Positions 2,715 through 21,021 of a stretch of DNA of 42,888 nt are shown here, piece by piece (within the stretch, counting starts at the first letter, position 1; the number at the start of each line of letters is the position of its first letter). Source of the stretch: Candidatus Moraniibacteriota bacterium (GTDB taxonomy: Bacteria; Patescibacteriota; Minisyncoccia; Moranbacterales; UBA1568). The stretch is taken from NCBI GenBank assembly GCA_013336285.1, contig JAAXTX010000007.1:1-42888 (forward strand). Direction: 5' to 3'. Below the pieces are notes generated by a model. The model did not search any database and was not told the DNA's origin. It saw nothing but the letters and a program-made list of their open reading frames with translations. The position numbers and the translations under genes were made by a program.

Positions 2715-4391
2715 TCAATCCGACCGCCTTTTCAGGTGCCGGTTCACGGCGGACAAGGTCGCGAGAAACGCGGCATAGGTCGCGTCCGTATCGATGCCCA
2801 CACCCCAGACATGATCGTGTCCGGACACCTGGACCGCTACGTACGCGACGGCTTTCGAGTCGGATCCGGTTCCCATCGAGCATTCCTCATAAGAAGCGAC
2901 AGCGAAGACCTCCTTCCGGCCGCGGTTGATCGCATGCATGAAGGCGTCGATGGGGCCGTTTCCGGATCCCACGACGATATCCCGTTTTCCTTTGACCTTG
3001 ATTTTCATGACCAGGATTTTATTGTCTTCCGAAATAAGCGACCGGTAGGTGAGAAGCCTGACCGGCGACACCCGGTCGAGATATTCTCGATCGAAGAGTG
3101 CGCCGACCTCGTCTTCCGACACTTCCCTGCCGACTGATTCCGAATACCGCTGGACCACGGCGCTGAAATCCGTGATGAGTCCGCGGGGCGGTTCGATATC
3201 CCGTACCCGTCTCAGGACATGCGCGATTCCTCCCTTCCCGGATTGACTGTTGATGCGAACGAACCGCACCTCACGCCCGATATCGCGCGGGTCGATCGGC
3301 AGGTATGGGACATCCCATATGCCGTCCGTACGGTGCTCCTGATGCCTCAGTCCCTTGTCGATGGCATCCTGATGAGATCCGGAAAACGCGGTATATGCCA
3401 GTTCGCCGGCATACGGCTGCCTCCGAGGGACTGCCATTCCCGTGCAGCGTTCATACGTGCGTACCACCCCCGGAAGATCCGAAAAATCAAGACCCGCATC
3501 CACGCCCTGGCTCATGAGATTGAGCGCCAGTGTGACGAGGTCGACGTTCCCCGTCCGCTCCCCGTTTCCGAAAAGCGTCCCCTCGACCCGATGGGCTCCC
3601 GCGAGGCACGCCTGTTCCGCCGCGGCGATGCCGGTCCCGCGATCATTGTGCGGATGGACGCTCACGGTGACCGACTCCGTCACGGACAGCCTCCGTATCA
3701 TCCACTCGACCATGTCGGCATACGCGTTCGGCGTACAGACTTCCACGGTCGCCGGCAGATTGACGATGACCGGACGAAGGACACCCCCGGCCCGCCACGC
3801 CTTGATGGCCGCTTCACAGGCATCGGCGGCGAAGTCGGGTTCGGTCTGCGTGAAACTCTCCGGGCAAAACTCGAGTATCCACTGCGTTTCCGGTTGCGCT
3901 TCGGCAAGCTCGCGGACGAGTCCCACATACCGGGTCGCCAGATCCACGATCCCATCACGGTCACGGCGCAACACGACTTCACGTTGCGTCTTCGAGGTCG
4001 AGACGTACAGATGCACGATGACGCGCTTCGCGCCACGGACCGCGTCGAACGTCTTTCTGATAAGGTCCTCGCGGGCCTGCGTCAGCACCTGAATCGTCAC
4101 ATCGTCGGGAACGGCACGATTCTCGATCAACGAGCGGATGAAATCGAACTCGATCTTCGAGGCCGCGGGGAAACCGACCTCGATTTCCTTGAACCCGATT
4201 TTGACCAGCAGATCGAACATGGCCCGTTTCTCCTCGGCACCCATCGGTTCTGCCAGCGCCTGGTTCCCGTCCCGCAGGTCGACACTGCACCAACGCGGCG
4301 CATGCGTCACCACGCGATCCGGCCACGTCCGATCCGGAAGATTAACCGCCGCGAAGGGCCGATAGCGTCGAAAAGGCATTCCTGTTTTCAT
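2715..4391 (-). CDS. leuA: 2-isopropylmalate synthase
   Basis: 558 aa; 'WCSVDLRDGNQAL', 'VHPHNDRGTG', 'EGTLFGNGERTGNVDLVTLALN', C-terminal regulatory domain 'GNGPIDAFMHAI'. Confidence 0.96.
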   Translation of the reverse strand: MKTGMPFRRYRPFAAVNLPDRTWPDRVVTHAPRWCSVDLRDGNQALAEPMGAEEKRAMFDLLVKIGFKEIEVGFPAASKIEFDFIRSLIENRAVPDDVTIQVLTQAREDLIRKTFDAVRGAKRVIVHLYVSTSKTQREVVLRRDRDGIVDLATRYVGLVRELAEAQPETQWILEFCPESFTQTEPDFAADACEAAIKAWRAGGVLRPVIVNLPATVEVCTPNAYADMVEWMIRRLSVTESVTVSVHPHNDRGTGIAAAEQACLAGAHRVEGTLFGNGERTGNVDLVTLALNLMSQGVDAGLDFSDLPGVVRTYERCTGMAVPRRQPYAGELAYTAFSGSHQDAIDKGLRHQEHRTDGIWDVPYLPIDPRDIGREVRFVRINSQSGKGGIAHVLRRVRDIEPPRGLITDFSAVVQRYSESVGREVSEDEVGALFDREYLDRVSPVRLLTYRSLISEDNKILVMKIKVKGKRDIVVGSGNGPIDAFMHAINRGRKEVFAVASYEECSMGTGSDSKAVAYVAVQVSGHDHVWGVGIDTDATYAAFLATLSAVNRHLKRRSD

Positions 4392-4450
4392 GATTCACTC
4401 CTTTTGTCTGTCCGCACGGAAGTGCGGGGTTATCGAAAGCACTGCGTTGT

Positions 4451-4490
4451 AAAAAAAACAAAGACCCCTCACGTTTCAGTGAAGGGTCTT
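4451..4490 (-). terminator. Leucine attenuator terminator (3:4 hairpin) upstream of leuA
   Basis: Minus strand AAGACCCTTCAC-TGAAAC-GTGAGGGGTCTT then TGTTTTTTTT, between the leader peptide and leuA. Confidence 0.85.
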
Positions 4491-4516
4491 CGTGTATCCG
4501 GAACGATCGTCGATTT

Positions 4517-4594
4517 CTAGATACAGGCAGAGCCTCCACCATGGGTGGGGATCAGGAGGCTCAGAAGAATGCTGTAGCTAAGAGGATATGTCAT
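4517..4594 (-). CDS. Leucine leader peptide MTYPLSYSILLSLLIPTHGGGSACI (25 aa), not in the ORF track
   Basis: ATG ACA TAT CCT CTT AGC TAC AGC ATT CTT CTG AGC CTC CTG ATC ... ATC TAG; 5 Leu in 25 codons, ending shortly before the attenuator terminator. Confidence 0.85.
   Translation of the reverse strand: MTYPLSYSILLSLLIPTHGGGSACI
4530..4562 (-). promoter_or_regulatory. 1:2 pause hairpin of the leu attenuator
   Basis: GAGCCTCC...GGAGGCTC perfect 8-bp stem whose 5' arm overlaps the Leu codon run. Confidence 0.8.
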
Positions 4595-4604
4595 ATGTGC
4601 GTCG

Positions 4605-4633
4605 ATTGTACCCGAAACGAATCCTCGCGTCAA
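4605..4633 (-). promoter_or_regulatory. Sigma70-type promoter of the leu leader/leuA
   Basis: TTGACG (4633-4628), 17-nt spacer, TACAAT (4610-4605), 10 nt before the leader ATG. Confidence 0.8.
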
Positions 4634-4725
4634 TACCGAAACGCCGGCACAGCGAACGTGCGCAAGGAAAACCCACCTGAACGGACATCCGTAGGCGGGT
4701 TATGTTTTTGAAGAAAGGCATTTCA

Positions 4726-5184
4726 TCACGGATAGTTCATGTAGAAAATACATCGTTTCTCCATGAAGTCTCTTGAGAGTCTGGACATCACACTCTCCAG
4801 ATGACAGTTATAGCGGGTTTTCACCTCACCGTCGGGAGTCTCGTCGAAATGTCGTTTCACTTGATTCTCGAGCAGTTCCCGCGCCATCGAAGAAAGGTCC
4901 CCCATGACCTTTTCATACTCGGAGGCCGAGTACGTTTCCCCTCTCTTATTGAGCGTCTGACCCCAATGATCGAAGATCACGAGTATGACCTTCTTCTCTT
5001 CATACTCATCTTCGGGCGTCAGGATCAAGCCGAATGCCCTGCTCTTTTCGAGTTCCTCGTTGATGACGTCTATGACGTACCGTATCTGCGTTTCGGCCAG
5101 ACGGTTGAATCCGGGAAGAAATTTCTCGTATTCCTCTTGCTTCGGAAAGATCCTTTCCATCAGCGCCACGAATATTTTTTTCAT
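4726..5184 (-). CDS. Hypothetical protein, orphan family A (paralog of 10874-11329)
   Basis: Shares 'QIRYV(I/L)DVI', 'EDEY.EK', 'IFDH.GQ(T/S)LN', 'FDETP(D/E)G', 'ESVMSRLSRDF' with the 151-aa copy; GGAGG SD. Confidence 0.75.
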   Translation of the reverse strand: MKKIFVALMERIFPKQEEYEKFLPGFNRLAETQIRYVIDVINEELEKSRAFGLILTPEDEYEEKKVILVIFDHWGQTLNKRGETYSASEYEKVMGDLSSMARELLENQVKRHFDETPDGEVKTRYNCHLESVMSRLSRDFMEKRCIFYMNYP

Positions 5185-5196
5185 GATCCTCCTTTT

Positions 5197-5210
5197 CCTG
5201 TCGTAACAGG
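5197..5210 (-). promoter_or_regulatory. 5'UTR hairpin CCTGT-TACG-ACAGG (UACG tetraloop) next to the SD
   Basis: Minus strand CCTGTTACGACAGGaaaaGGAGGatcATG. Confidence 0.6.
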
Positions 5211-5249
5211 AATTAATATCCGATTGGTAAGCAACGTTTGTATGACGAG

Positions 5250-5278
5250 TTTATATCACAAGATACTTCATCTGTCAA
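5250..5278 (-). promoter_or_regulatory. Sigma70-type promoter of orphan family A gene
   Basis: TTGACA (5278-5273), 17 nt, TATAAA (5255-5250). Confidence 0.75.
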
Positions 5279-5343
5279 CTATGAAACGTGTAAGCGTAAA
5301 AGGAAAACCTACCGAAGCAGGTTTCCTGCCGGTAGGCTTGAAT

Positions 5344-5844
5344 TCAGAGCAGATCGATCGTAGAAAACTTCCCATGATCACCGATGCGACCGCTTCCGAT
5401 TTTGTTGAGCGGTACTTGTTTCCCGGTCTCGGCATCGAAACCGAAATGAAACGTCACCGATGGCCCGACGAGCACTCGTATCGGACCGGATAACCGTATC
5501 CGCGAGAGTTCCGCTTTCGATCCGGCGACGATCCATCCGACGTACCAATCCCTTCCGGATACCGGTTCGATGACGATATAGTCGCGCCATCCGCCGAAAA
5601 TTGGCATATGGGAAAGGATGGGATGATCGCCTTTCAGGGCATCCGGATTCGCGGCGGATCGTATCATCAGATCCCGCCTGAGATCGAGAGTCCCGTTGCC
5701 GATGATCCTGTTCACGTTCCAACTTCTCGTCCGCTGCGGCGATTCCCGGAACGTTCCGGATACGAGATAGACCAGGGGCGCCGTCAGGAGTTCCCCCGCT
5801 CTTCGCGCCCAGCCGAGCGGAGACACCGTTATCCTTAGTGACAT
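5344..5844 (-). CDS. Hypothetical protein, orphan family B (paralog of 22150-22647)
   Basis: Shares 'YLVSGTFRESPQ', 'FGGWRDY(I/V)V', 'IPLSGP/IRLSGP', 'GRIGD.G(K/E)FS' with the 165-aa copy; AGGAGG SD. Confidence 0.75.
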   Translation of the reverse strand: MSLRITVSPLGWARRAGELLTAPLVYLVSGTFRESPQRTRSWNVNRIIGNGTLDLRRDLMIRSAANPDALKGDHPILSHMPIFGGWRDYIVIEPVSGRDWYVGWIVAGSKAELSRIRLSGPIRVLVGPSVTFHFGFDAETGKQVPLNKIGSGRIGDHGKFSTIDLL

Positions 5845-5885
5845 GTAAACCTCCTCTACGTTATGCGTTTATAAAACAACACGCG

Positions 5886-5914
5886 ATACTATCGTATACC
5901 GTACCATCCGTCAA
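5886..5914 (-). promoter_or_regulatory. Sigma70-type promoter of orphan family B gene
   Basis: TTGACG, 17 nt, TAGTAT on the minus strand. Confidence 0.6.
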
Positions 5915-16898: not shown

Positions 16899-16930
16899 GC
16901 ACCCTGAGCAACACAAACACCGGTTCCACA

Positions 16931-17025
16931 GGCAAGTAACCAAAAGGGTATACGTGCGTATACCCTTTTATATTGGTTAAGAATAGGAACGAATCAGCTT
17001 AGTTTTACAAAAAACGTACCTGACC
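16931..17025. repeat. REP/MITE-like dispersed repeat, copy 2, with a perfect 28-bp palindrome
   Basis: AAAAGGGTATACG-TG-CGTATACCCTTTT at 16942-16969; tail GTACCTGACCCCTTTTCTG. Confidence 0.7.
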
Positions 17026-17036
17026 CCTTTTCTGGC

Positions 17037-17759
17037 TCAATCGATTTTCCAGTGCCAATTGCTCCTATATATAGTCTCGCCATCCATTGCTGTCCATACT
17101 CTTTCTTCCCACATATTCACCGTGAAATCATTGTTCAACTTACTGATCTTGTTTATCCTGTCGTAGACATCCTTCGAAATGTGCACGTGGTAACCGTCCA
17201 CAGATAGCGAAGACAGCTTGACCGCGTAATTGGTTGCGTTTCCAACCCAGACCAAATCATTATTATTTCCACCCTTTATTCCGCCCCTTACAATCAAGAT
17301 CTTTCCCACATCGACCCCGATTCCGAAATTGAAATCCATGTCCGCCAGCTGTTTATTATTTTGAAAATATGCATCAATTTTTGGTTTCAAAATATACTGA
17401 CAAAACCATTTCATTTGCAACGCTGCTTTTACAGCGTTTGTTCTTTTTCCGTCACCATTAAACACAACAAGGACGCCGTCACCATTGAAACTTCTGAGTT
17501 CTCCACTATTTTCCCTGGCAATCTTTGAAACTCCCCAAAGAAACGATTTGTACATCCGAGCAGCTGTTGTACGCCTGAACCCACCAACTATTTTCGTTGA
17601 TTCCCGAATATCAATGAATAGCATCGCCAGCTCCATTTCTCTTCCCTCTTTTCCAAAGGGTATATCCGTTATTTCTGGAACAACAAGCCCGTCTTTTATT
17701 TCATATTGCCCAGAAAAAAATACGTCTATCTGTTTGTCTAAGTCATCTCTGCCTAACAT
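17037..17759 (-). CDS. Class III nucleotidyl cyclase domain protein (PycC-like), cyclase 2
   Basis: 'MLFIDIRESTKIVGGF', 'SFNGDGVLVVFNG', 'FGIGVDVGKILI', 'VGNATNYAVKLSS' cyclase-fold motifs; start overlaps the TM effector stop. Confidence 0.8.
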   Translation of the reverse strand: MLGRDDLDKQIDVFFSGQYEIKDGLVVPEITDIPFGKEGREMELAMLFIDIRESTKIVGGFRRTTAARMYKSFLWGVSKIARENSGELRSFNGDGVLVVFNGDGKRTNAVKAALQMKWFCQYILKPKIDAYFQNNKQLADMDFNFGIGVDVGKILIVRGGIKGGNNNDLVWVGNATNYAVKLSSLSVDGYHVHISKDVYDRINKISKLNNDFTVNMWEERVWTAMDGETIYRSNWHWKID

Positions 17760-18262
17760 ACGATGCGTCTGATTATGAACTCAGCATAGACGACTATCAA
17801 GATTGATATCCCTGTCACGAACGTGATCATTGAATCTCTAAATTTCACATGCTTGGTCTGTGCAACCCCTGCAGAAGCATGTGTTTGTGATATCAAATCA
17901 TCTAGCAACTCTTCCTCAGTAGCATCTTTCAATTTTTTTCGATAACTACTCAATGAATTATCCGCTATATGCCCGAAAAAAGTAAGCGATTTAATTTTGG
18001 AATGATTTACTATACGTGGAATTATGGCGGAGAAGGATTTGCCGACGCCAAGCAATAAAAGAATGCTCGCCGTAATGAGAAGCGATATCTCCCATTTTGT
18101 GAAATCAAAACTATGTTTCCAAAACCATTTGAAAATCATCGGAAAAAGAAGTGTCAGCAGAACACCCTGAAATGCTAGAAAAATACTGATTTTCTGGTCA
18201 GCTGCTTTTATCCATTCATGGACTCTTGCGAGATTTTTTTCTACGTAGTTTCGTTCAATCAT
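17753..18262 (-). CDS. Pycsar effector-like (DUF5706-like) transmembrane protein (start 18262 or 18274)
   Basis: 'VHEWIKAADQKISIFLAFQGVLLTLLFP', second TM, 'AIIPRI...LTFFGHIADNSLSSYRKKLKDATEEELLDDLISQTHASAGVAQTKHVKFRDSM', third TM; ATG overlaps the cyclase 1 stop. The 277-aa track start is inside cyclase 1. Confidence 0.75.
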   Translation of the reverse strand: MIERNYVEKNLARVHEWIKAADQKISIFLAFQGVLLTLLFPMIFKWFWKHSFDFTKWEISLLITASILLLLGVGKSFSAIIPRIVNHSKIKSLTFFGHIADNSLSSYRKKLKDATEEELLDDLISQTHASAGVAQTKHVKFRDSMITFVTGISILIVVYAEFIIRRIVC

Positions 18263-19085
18263 AACTATTTTCATCAAGAGCAAGAATGGCTTCACAGTAT
18301 CCTTTGCCATGCGTATCGCACCACCCGATGCTATTTGATAATTTATACAGCTTGTCAAAATCAAATTTCGGTTCCTGACTGACATCTTCTTCGGTCCAGA
18401 GATCGGTTTTTTGTCCGCTATTCCCACATCCGCAACTTTTAAGCACCAATTCGGAACCGTCATCGGAAAAAAGATTAAATACCCGCTCCGAAATAAGTAA
18501 ATCGTTTTCCTCTCCCCTCGAAGCAAGCTTGGATGCCATATTAACAGGTTTTCCGGCCCAAACCTCATTCTGTTTGTCCGTACCATCAGATGACCTTCTT
18601 AAACCAATCCTTTTTACCAAAACGGTTTTCCTATCGATGCCGATATGACAGGTTATTTTCCCATCTTCGATTTGGATATGTTTACCAATTTCATTCGCTG
18701 AAAAAGTCTTGAATGAAACTGCTGCAGCCAAAGCATGATAAAGTCGATTCGAATCGAAAAGCCCGAAAGCTCCGTCGCCTCGAACATCGATATAGGTAGC
18801 TCCAAAATGATCAAGGATACGAACCGCGGTATCCGTAAAATACTGATAAATGGCAGCTGTTGATTTGTCATGCTTCTGCGCGCTCAATTGAGTAGAATTT
18901 TTCATATCAATGAAGACGCAGGTAACGTCATCTATCCGGAGCCATTTATTTGATTCTAGTGAAAAATCACCCAGTACTGTTGGAATCGATGAGACAGACT
19001 CTACTTTCGTTTCTTCCTGATACCTCTCATAGGCAGAATTGAGGATATCTGAAATTTCCTCTTGATACCTTTCTTGTTCTGGCAT
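18255..19085 (-). CDS. Class III nucleotidyl cyclase domain protein (PycC-like), cyclase 1, with Cys/His-rich C-tail
   Basis: 'VTCVFIDMKNSTQLSAQ', 'YIDVRGDGAFGLFD', 'CHIGIDRKTVLVKRIG', 'VWAGKPVNMASKLAS'; C-tail has CGC and WCDTHGKGYC. Confidence 0.82.
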   Translation of the reverse strand: MPEQERYQEEISDILNSAYERYQEETKVESVSSIPTVLGDFSLESNKWLRIDDVTCVFIDMKNSTQLSAQKHDKSTAAIYQYFTDTAVRILDHFGATYIDVRGDGAFGLFDSNRLYHALAAAVSFKTFSANEIGKHIQIEDGKITCHIGIDRKTVLVKRIGLRRSSDGTDKQNEVWAGKPVNMASKLASRGEENDLLISERVFNLFSDDGSELVLKSCGCGNSGQKTDLWTEEDVSQEPKFDFDKLYKLSNSIGWCDTHGKGYCEAILALDENSYD

Positions 19086-19089
19086 AAAC

Positions 19090-19734
19090 TTAATTTTTCA
19101 TATTTTTAATAACCTCCACGACTTTCCCGCTCAAGACGTACTGACCAATCTCGCTCTCGCCAATGACGATCGGCGGATAGTCTTTCGTCGATTCGGACAC
19201 GAGCATCACCTGCTGATGCTCCTGGTCGAGATAAAACTTCTTGATGTTCGCAAGGCCATCGATCACGGAAAGCACATACTGACCGTCTTCGGGAGCTTTC
19301 ACGTCAGAATCGACTATCGCATAATCTCCCGGATCGATGCCTCTCTTAGCCTTTCCGATCTTCGCCTTATTCATCGAGAATCCGTCCGCCTGCACGGCGA
19401 ACAGTCCCTTTTTATACGGGATGATGGCACTGGAAACGCGGATGTAGCTCTGGATATAATTCTCGGCCAATTTGGTAGCTCCACCGCAATCAGCGGCGCC
19501 ATAGACCGGAATAGACACCAATCCGGATATGCGAGATACCCCCTCTTTAATCCGCTCAACCACACCACCCTCCTTGTCCAACCTAATATGCCCCTTCTTC
19601 TGAAGCTGTGAAAGGTGATGCTTCACCGTCTGAGCGTTCTTGATGCCAACCAGATCGCCAATGGCGCGATAAGTCATTTTCCCAAGATCGTGTTTTTTGG
19701 CAAGTTCGAGTAGTTTTTCCTGATTCTTATGCAT
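19090..19734 (-). CDS. LexA/UmuD-like S24 autoprotease-type transcriptional regulator
   Basis: N-terminal HTH; 'VQADGFSMNKA' (Ser), 'GLANIKKFYL' (Lys), 'YPPIVIGESEIGQYVLSGKVVEVI'; Cys-Gly candidate cleavage site 'AADCGGA'. Confidence 0.82.
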   Translation of the reverse strand: MHKNQEKLLELAKKHDLGKMTYRAIGDLVGIKNAQTVKHHLSQLQKKGHIRLDKEGGVVERIKEGVSRISGLVSIPVYGAADCGGATKLAENYIQSYIRVSSAIIPYKKGLFAVQADGFSMNKAKIGKAKRGIDPGDYAIVDSDVKAPEDGQYVLSVIDGLANIKKFYLDQEHQQVMLVSESTKDYPPIVIGESEIGQYVLSGKVVEVIKNMKN

Positions 19735-19756: not shown

Positions 19757-19785
19757 AGCATAACAAAACTGAATACACCTGTCAA
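19757..19785 (-). promoter_or_regulatory. Promoter of the S24-cyclase-TM-cyclase operon
   Basis: TTGACA (19785-19780), 17 nt, TATGCT (19762-19757). Confidence 0.75.
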
Positions 19786-19836: not shown

Positions 19837-19980
19837 CATCGTACTCTCGAAAATGTCGCAAGGGTCGCTTTGTGAAGCCTTTTTCTCAATCAAAAACCCG
19901 AGTCCGTGTGGATGGCCGGGTTTTTGGTTGATTTTGGTTGATTCAATCGGGAGAGAAGCTGTGTTTGCCGGGGTAGAGCG
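19837..19980. repeat. Direct repeat copy A flanking the TIGR02391-like gene
   Basis: Strong similarity to 20869-21021; includes terminator-like CCCG..CGGG hairpin and coding remnant ...SLYPGKHSFSPD*. Confidence 0.75.
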
Positions 19981-20000
19981 ACGTAAGCACCGGCTCCGTC

Positions 20001-20055
20001 GAAAAGTAAACAAAAAAGGTATACGTGCCTATACCCTTTTATAAATATTAAAATG
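20001..20055. repeat. REP/MITE-like repeat, partial copy 3
   Basis: AAAAGTAAACAAAAAAGGTATACGTGCCTATACCCTTTTATAAATATTAA aligns with the 16.93-kb copy. Confidence 0.55.
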
Positions 20056-20097: not shown

Positions 20098-20823
20098 CTA
20101 ATCCAAATTAATTGAATCAACGATCCTAAGAAGTTGGTTTGCAAAATGGATTATATCCGCTACCTCATATGGATCAATAAGATCCACATTTCTATGACCC
20201 GACGGATTCCTAAACGTACCATATGCGCCACAAAAAAGGTTCATTCTCGCATTTTTTTCTCCCGAGGCTTCATCAGCATTCTGATCAACCAAAGCTCCGC
20301 TAGTTGGTCCGAAGGCTTTTTTCATAAGAGCCTCTCCAAAGTCTGTATTACTAAGTTTTGCTTTTTTCCTTACTCGAACTTCAACTTCCTTAAAAGCTCC
20401 GAATACTGCCTCATCATAGTCTCCTCTAATAAATGCTGGCTTTACTTTCTTTACCAAAACAGGGTCGAGTCCGTCTGAAGGAAGGAGGTGGCCTTTCTTG
20501 TATGCTTCGAAGTTTTGATCCAGCAGAACCTTTTTTCCCCTATTAGTAATAAATGACCAATCGGTTTGGCCTGGCTTTGGAGCAATAAATAGCTCCTTCT
20601 CTAACCACATCCATGCAACCACTAAGCTTTCCTTTACGCTATCCTTATTCTCGTGACCAGTCCACTCCTTAAAGTCTGATGACGTACCCAGAGAGAAATT
20701 ATGCTTATTGAGATCCTGACTTCCAGCCTGACTCAAATACCTCAATACAAAAGGCGCAAGCTCTTCGGGCTCCATCTCTAAAAGATTTTCAATTGGTGGA
20801 AAGATTTCTTTATAGAGTGACAT
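20098..20823 (-). CDS. TIGR02391 (Ymh)-like protein
   Basis: C-terminal 'AVFGAFKEVEVRVRKKAKLSNTDFGEALMKKAFG...GEKNARMNLFCGAYGTFRNPSGHRNVD' matches the family pattern. Confidence 0.7.
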   Translation of the reverse strand: MSLYKEIFPPIENLLEMEPEELAPFVLRYLSQAGSQDLNKHNFSLGTSSDFKEWTGHENKDSVKESLVVAWMWLEKELFIAPKPGQTDWSFITNRGKKVLLDQNFEAYKKGHLLPSDGLDPVLVKKVKPAFIRGDYDEAVFGAFKEVEVRVRKKAKLSNTDFGEALMKKAFGPTSGALVDQNADEASGEKNARMNLFCGAYGTFRNPSGHRNVDLIDPYEVADIIHFANQLLRIVDSINLD

Positions 20824-20868: not shown

Positions 20869-21021
20869 CATCATACTCCCTCCGGAAGATGTCGGAAAGC
20901 ATCGCTTTGTGAAGCCTTTTTTTGAACAATCAAAAACCCGGGTCCATGCGGATCGCCGGGTTTTGGGTTGGCTTTTCGTTTGATTCAATCGGGATAGAAG
21001 CTGTGCTTGCCGGGGTAGAGC
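20869..21021. repeat. Direct repeat copy B flanking the TIGR02391-like gene
   Basis: Shares GCTTTGTGAAGCCTTTTT, CAATCAAAAACCCG..TCC, TTGATTCAATCGGGA.AGAAGCTGTG.TTGCCGGGGTAGAGC with copy A. Confidence 0.75.

Follow-up and report, generated by a model that had tools for sequence, protein, structure and literature searches.

Why would a bacterial defense operon carry two different cyclases for a single effector? The question is raised by a 42,888-nucleotide stretch of DNA from a Candidatus Moraniibacteriota bacterium (contig JAAXTX010000007.1; here, the window), in which two cyclase genes flank the gene of a putative membrane effector behind a LexA-like S24 gene. A sequence-only reading had proposed a candidate dual-cyclase Pycsar system at this locus, and that proposal is supported by the protein families, by fold, and by recurrent synteny. 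We regard it as very likely that the operon is a Pycsar system. The usual published make-up of Pycsar is one cyclase per system, which is not a strict requirement. Here, a PycC enzyme with its metal-binding Asp pair occurs in two copies next to a PycTM gene, a departure from the one-cyclase make-up; because the family definition does not exclude cyclase pairing, we treat the operon as a Pycsar variant.

The operon consists of four contiguous genes, all on the minus strand, from 19734 to 17037 (Table 1). The compact arrangement first noticed is all present in the sequence: genes 1 and 2 are separated by 4 nt, and start/stop overlaps join genes 2 and 3 (ATGATTGA at 18262) and genes 3 and 4 (ATGTTAG at 17759), so that the PycTM gene overlaps the cyclase genes on both sides. 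PycTM is read here from an internal ATG, the mechanical open reading frame extending further upstream. That all four genes are coding is not in doubt, given their matches to curated families and the recurrence of the same gene set in distant genomes.

Table 1. Features of the operon and its surroundings (positions in the window).
Feature	Position	Strand	Remark
Gene 1, LexA-like S24 protein	19090..19734	-	214 aa
Gene 2, PycC clade D	18255..19085	-	276 aa
Gene 3, PycTM effector	17753..18262	-	169 aa
Gene 4, second PycC (NG type)	17037..17759	-	240 aa
Candidate sigma-70 promoter TTGACA-17-TATGCT	19757..19785	-	10/12 consensus matches, TG extension
Short inverted repeat TTCAG-N10-CTGAA	19773-19754		overlaps -10 of candidate promoter
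Palindromic hairpin with T-run, candidate bidirectional terminator	16942..16969		between operon and convergent TrmB-like gene
Related repeat	16906-16972
Related repeat	19860-20043
Related repeat	20902-21021
Copy of 35-nt hairpin stretch	20009-20043		91%, across the operon
Hypoth_Ymh (HEPN-like) gene	20098-20823	-	PF09509, 88.8 bits

The expression signals are less distinctive. The promoter reported earlier is present as described, yet the region holds 14 promoter-like sites against 6.6 +/- 2.9 expected, and since consensus-like sites are this frequent, the match is weak on its own. The inverted repeat over its -10 element could be an operator, although a weak candidate for one. A 140-base scan returned no palindrome with 6-bp arms, and a search for an operator motif common to the upstream regions of S24 genes found none. 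At the other end, the hairpin probably terminates the operon.

To which families do the two cyclases and the membrane protein belong? The middle protein had been described as having the layout of DUF5706 Pycsar effectors, and it does match the PycTM/DUF5706 family above threshold (Pfam PF18967, 45.6 bits; cut-off, 27.2) as well as the PADLOC PycTM model (118.6 bits). Hydropathy places three hydrophobic segments at about residues 24-47, 55-81, and 144-169, and the structure model is all-helical (pLDDT, 85.7). A fold search with this model yielded coiled-coil noise and nothing significant. CBASS was considered as an assignment and rejected, there being no CD-NTase among the operon proteins.

Gene 2 matches PADLOC PycC model PDLC00763 (328 bits), and its nearest solved structure is AnPycC (8jsz; 230 bits, E = 2.4e-67). 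Clade D is defined by the AnPycC zinc ligands C221/C223/C260/H263, with a base pocket of F60/K104/F109 (PMC11224242). In alignment to AnPycC, gene 2 holds the complete zinc-ligand set (C218/C220/C256/H259) and a pocket of F58/R102/F107, in which both Phe residues are kept and Lys is replaced by an Arg shared with the related locus L055. By the zinc ligands, we assign gene 2 to the PycC enzymes of zinc-finger clade D. The transition-state residues N182 and K186 are present. The metal-binding Asp motifs that the sequence-only reading quoted for both cyclases are there as quoted, at D60/D104 in gene 2 and D50/D94 in gene 4.

Gene 4 matches a different PADLOC PycC model (PDLC02367, 262 bits). BcPycC (7r65) is its nearest solved structure by sequence (112 bits, about 32% identity) and also the best Foldseek match (TM, 0.87/0.91) of its AF2 model (pLDDT, 90.5). 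N177 and K181 are kept. BcPycC, a clade B uridylate cyclase, reads UTP with Y50/D94/R97 (PMC11224242), and canonical clade B cyclases share the Y.D / DGDR motif. Gene 4 is without these UTP-reading residues, having F48/N92/G95 in their place. In all five loci where it pairs with a clade D enzyme (see below), the second cyclase has NGDG where clade B has DGDR, and its first position is F or Y, so that two or three UTP-reading residues are altered; we refer to these enzymes as NG type. In our tree, the NGDG enzymes lie outside a supported group made up of the 51 DGDR enzymes, so that the change is a lineage difference rather than five separate events. Gene 4 is by this placement a PycC sister to clade B, outside the canonical clade.

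We then examined how often such a pair occurs. PycC searches in samples of the window's phylum (genomes of 0.4-1.7 Mb), followed by inspection of the loci, gave eight PycTM loci with intact flanks. A clade D plus NG pair lies around or beside PycTM in five of these eight, in three gene orders: D-TM-NG (the window, G606/L055, and G363/L057), D-NG-TM (G655/L003), and TM-NG-D (G128/L058). In none of the five are the two cyclase genes more than one gene apart. The other three loci have a single cyclase (G203, clade B; G232, NG-like with a GDR motif; G1124, clade C), and two more NG loci (G469 and G1173), cut by contig ends, were left out of the counts. The linkage of two cyclases with DUF5706 claimed for the window is thus borne out elsewhere in the phylum. 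A single-query scan of genome contigs returned L003 only; scans of viral contigs gave no match with single-sequence queries (genes 4 and 2) or with a clade D alignment.

Beyond the phylum, PycTM loci with two cyclases turn up on plasmids of actinobacteria and clostridia, on viral contigs, and in a Ruminococcus phage, with D+C, C+long cyclase, B+B, or D+B+B as the combination. Since the plasmid and phage loci were picked for having two matches, they give no frequency, and the phylum survey is the less biased sample. The long PycC-like cyclase (457-476 aa; L007 4977-6407, L064 3929-5353, and L078 5733-7106) is paired there with a GDC-type cyclase and PycTM, and its C-terminal half has no family assignment. 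At L010 (4861-5448), a PycTM gene in the DNA between two cyclases is missing from the distributed annotation. Cyclases also occur alone: clade D in L008, clade C in L109 and L131, and the NG type in L092, and AnPycC is itself a clade D cyclase standing alone in the Anabaena Pycsar system (PMC11224242). L092 (1897-5741) is a viral contig with PycTM, an NG enzyme as the only recognized cyclase, and a CI-like S24 repressor upstream. L131 (64-8012), from the same order as the window's genome, has a single GDC-type cyclase and PycTM within a type I restriction-modification gene row.

For the sequence-only reading, this exact layout was not known to have been described. No description of two PycC lineages with one PycTM was found in the literature searched, to which the founding Pycsar paper (Cell 2021) did not belong, but the two-cyclase layout is not peculiar to the window and recurs with several pairings. 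As far as the literature searched shows, two PycC lineages with one PycTM make a new variant of Pycsar, each part of which is in or close to a known family.

Do the two cyclases work separately or together? Three arrangements had been put forward for the pair: two inputs, a heterodimer, or one active and one regulatory enzyme. In an obligate heterodimer, NG would give the Asp pair and clade D the Asn and Lys of one composite site, as in C1/C2 of mammalian adenylyl cyclase. L003 fits this arrangement, since its NG enzyme keeps the Asp pair and has Tyr and Glu in place of the transition-state Asn and Lys while its clade D partner is intact; at least one relative, then, cannot work as a homodimer. 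The close spacing of the two genes in all five loci points the same way. However, if the heterodimer were obligate, losses in the two partners should complement each other and the pair should always be inherited together. One of the five loci shows complementary loss, and in the other four (the window, L055, L057, and L058) the metal Asp pair and the transition-state Asn and Lys are intact in both partners. Partner change is also seen: L003 and the window are 63% identical in clade D and only 31% in NG, so that the NG partner has been replaced or is diverging fast. Two self-sufficient cyclases therefore account for the data better. Because the D, C, and NG types are each also found alone and clade D swaps partners, we prefer two inputs, the first of the three arrangements, and consider an obligate heterodimer unlikely. 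The cyclases probably both function and feed one effector, and two independent homodimers are slightly favored over an obligate heterodimer.

With two self-sufficient enzymes, the products could still differ. Clade D would make cUMP, and NG, with the amide of Asn92 in place of the uracil-reading carboxylate, would make cCMP or another nucleotide that acts as a second activator or as an inhibitory decoy. Such decoy logic is reportedly known for Panoptes, a different system, which would count in favor of this alternative. The carboxylate-to-amide change makes an altered base preference possible, and, relative to the Asp motifs, F48 and N92 match the positions of F100 and Q144 of the cytidylate cyclase EaPycC, whose base-reading residues are F100, Q144, and R142 (PMC11224242). 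Against it, R142 has no counterpart (Ser90 in gene 4), and some actinobacterial clade D enzymes also have Gln at this position, so that the residue alone does not set specificity. We rate a division of labor by nucleotide as rather improbable. Given the lost UTP-reading residues, the NG cyclase may use another NTP or have poor activity.

Poor activity, taken further, would make NG a pseudo-enzyme, either regulatory or in decay, with a role in modulating the clade D cyclase or in blocking a phage inhibitor. The specificity residues are lost in all NG enzymes and the catalytic ones in L003, whose NG member also sits on a long branch of the tree. Yet all PycC enzymes compared in the residue survey, the NG type included, keep both metal Asp residues; the NG enzymes of the window, L054, L055, L057, and L058 keep the catalytic Asn and Lys; intact NG reading frames occur in several families of the phylum; and NG is the sole recognized cyclase of L092. 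A pseudo-enzyme is accordingly quite improbable. The better reading is that two cyclases would be kept for different triggers or for different products.

What, then, might control the operon? The gene 1 protein combines a winged helix-turn-helix with an S24 domain and passes the curated cut-offs for both the S24 domain (PF00717, 48.1 bits; cut-off, 23.3) and the LexA DNA-binding domain (PF01726, 25.7 bits; cut-off, 23.7). It falls under the NCBIfam lexA equivalog cut-off (71.7 versus 110.95 bits), and we class its predicted product as LexA-like without filing it as LexA. Together with a candidate cleavage site of the UmuD/LexA type (Cys83-Gly84) and a candidate Ser120/Lys165 dyad, the domain matches support its initial description as a LexA/UmuD-like S24 regulator. 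Of the two other LexA-like proteins in the same genome, one is 35% identical to it.

Synteny of such a gene with the two cyclases and DUF5706 was found in part. The cyclase pair and PycTM recur in five of eight loci, and an S24/LexA-like gene adjoins three of those five (the window, L003, and L057) and is absent from two (L055 and L058). It lies on the same strand as the operon in the window and L057, where a small reading frame of about 68 codons (read by eye) intervenes, and is divergent in L003. With one to three S24 genes per genome, the chance of an S24 neighbor in three of five loci is about 1e-6 for immediate neighbors and 3e-5 within three genes, values computed after the pattern was seen and assuming random gene placement. 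A profile of the S24 proteins linked to D+NG pairs gave no convincing match among the other surveyed loci and one weak match, the distant CI-like protein of L092. In L003, the S24 protein (4375-5904, minus strand) is fused to an N6/N4 DNA methylase, an unusual fusion.

Repressors that respond to DNA damage and sit in front of immune operons, Pycsar among them, are already a well-established theme (CapW/BrxR, CapH+CapP, and CapK+CapS; PMC13373217), and no description of a LexA-like controller of Pycsar was found in the literature searched. Control of the operon by self-cleavage of the S24 protein seems slightly favored. In two Lactobacillus plasmids (L112 1650-4807 and L113 1555-4714), Pycsar pairs adjoin a divergent Y-family DNA polymerase gene, a further hint of an SOS link.

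The surroundings of the operon bear on whether it is a defense system at all. Three related repeats flank the operon and the neighboring Ymh gene, are found nowhere else in the genome, and may mark successive insertions. A search for an empty site in the sister genome G003 gave no clean example: the two sequences agree as far as the terminator palindrome, G003 diverges just after it, and its contig ends. By the repeats and this comparison, the operon occupies a variable spot. The Ymh product also has weak matches to the PD-Lambda-3_B and Aga_HEPN defense models and is a possible second defense gene. PycTM was absent from the five other genomes of the genus that were searched. Were the operon instead a host signaling unit, SOS regulated and built of class III cyclases and a membrane protein, the S24 regulator would fit as a sign of stress control. 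Such a role is very improbable, given the specific PycC and PycTM family membership, the sporadic presence within the genus, the variable spot with its unique repeats, and the relatives on plasmids, in phage, and beside SIR2-like or type I restriction-modification genes. Instead of phage, the operon may be directed against some other type of mobile element.

Taken together, we favor, with reasonable though not strong confidence, a Pycsar-type abortive infection system in which two PycC lineages serve one PycTM under a probably self-cleaving S24 repressor. Of this picture, the sequence, families, fold, synteny, and residue states are observed, and the activity, products, triggers, regulation, and defense role are inferred. 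As its domains and recurrent linkage suggest, the S24 protein would hold expression low until single-stranded DNA from infection, or RecA-type damage, leads to its cleavage and to derepression. The two cyclases, each capable on paper of forming a homodimer, would be triggered separately, possibly by different phage cues. Both would make a cyclic pyrimidine mononucleotide, which in the case of the clade D enzyme is, from its clade, most likely cUMP. By analogy with characterized Pycsar systems, PycTM would bind the signal and disrupt the membrane, the cell dying before phage release.

Should both cyclases be functional, two sensors, or two nucleotides, would act on one death effector, and what triggers Pycsar could then be tested directly by mutating the cyclases singly. 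Such a pair could explain how a host with a very small genome covers a wider range of phages, or withstands phage enzymes that destroy one of the signals. The recurring pairings, varied in make-up (D+NG, D+C, C+long, and B+B), suggest repeated selection for two cyclases, and the linkage of the S24 gene points to an abortive system under SOS-type control by one protein. We consider doubtful the stronger combination in which the cyclases make different cyclic pyrimidines or form one composite enzyme, the effector integrates two signals, and, in addition, self-cleaving LexA-like S24 proteins constitute one more class of controllers that tie immune operons to DNA damage.

How does the operon compare with known systems? 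Like the Anabaena Pycsar system (AnPycC with AnPycTM; 8jsz; PMC11224242), it has a PycTM and a clade D cyclase with the same zinc ligands and an F/basic/F pocket; unlike it, the window also has an S24 gene and a second cyclase from a different lineage, and Arg stands in place of K104. Gene 4 resembles BcPycC in fold, identity, and metal Asp pair and differs in its three UTP-reading positions and its place outside canonical clade B. The arrangement of two PycC genes around or next to a single PycTM is shared with Mycobacterium marinum pRAW (L006), Curtobacterium (L009 and L010), Paraclostridium sordellii pCS1-5 (L007), and Ruminococcus phage NatCom_28274 (L064), whose second cyclase is of the GDC type (PDLC02368) instead of NG and near which no S24 gene was detected. 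As with CapW/BrxR, CapH+CapP, and CapK+CapS (PMC13373217), a putative repressor gene precedes the immune operon and would link it to DNA damage; in contrast to them, the window has one LexA-like S24 protein that carries a candidate cleavage site and Ser/Lys dyad of its own.
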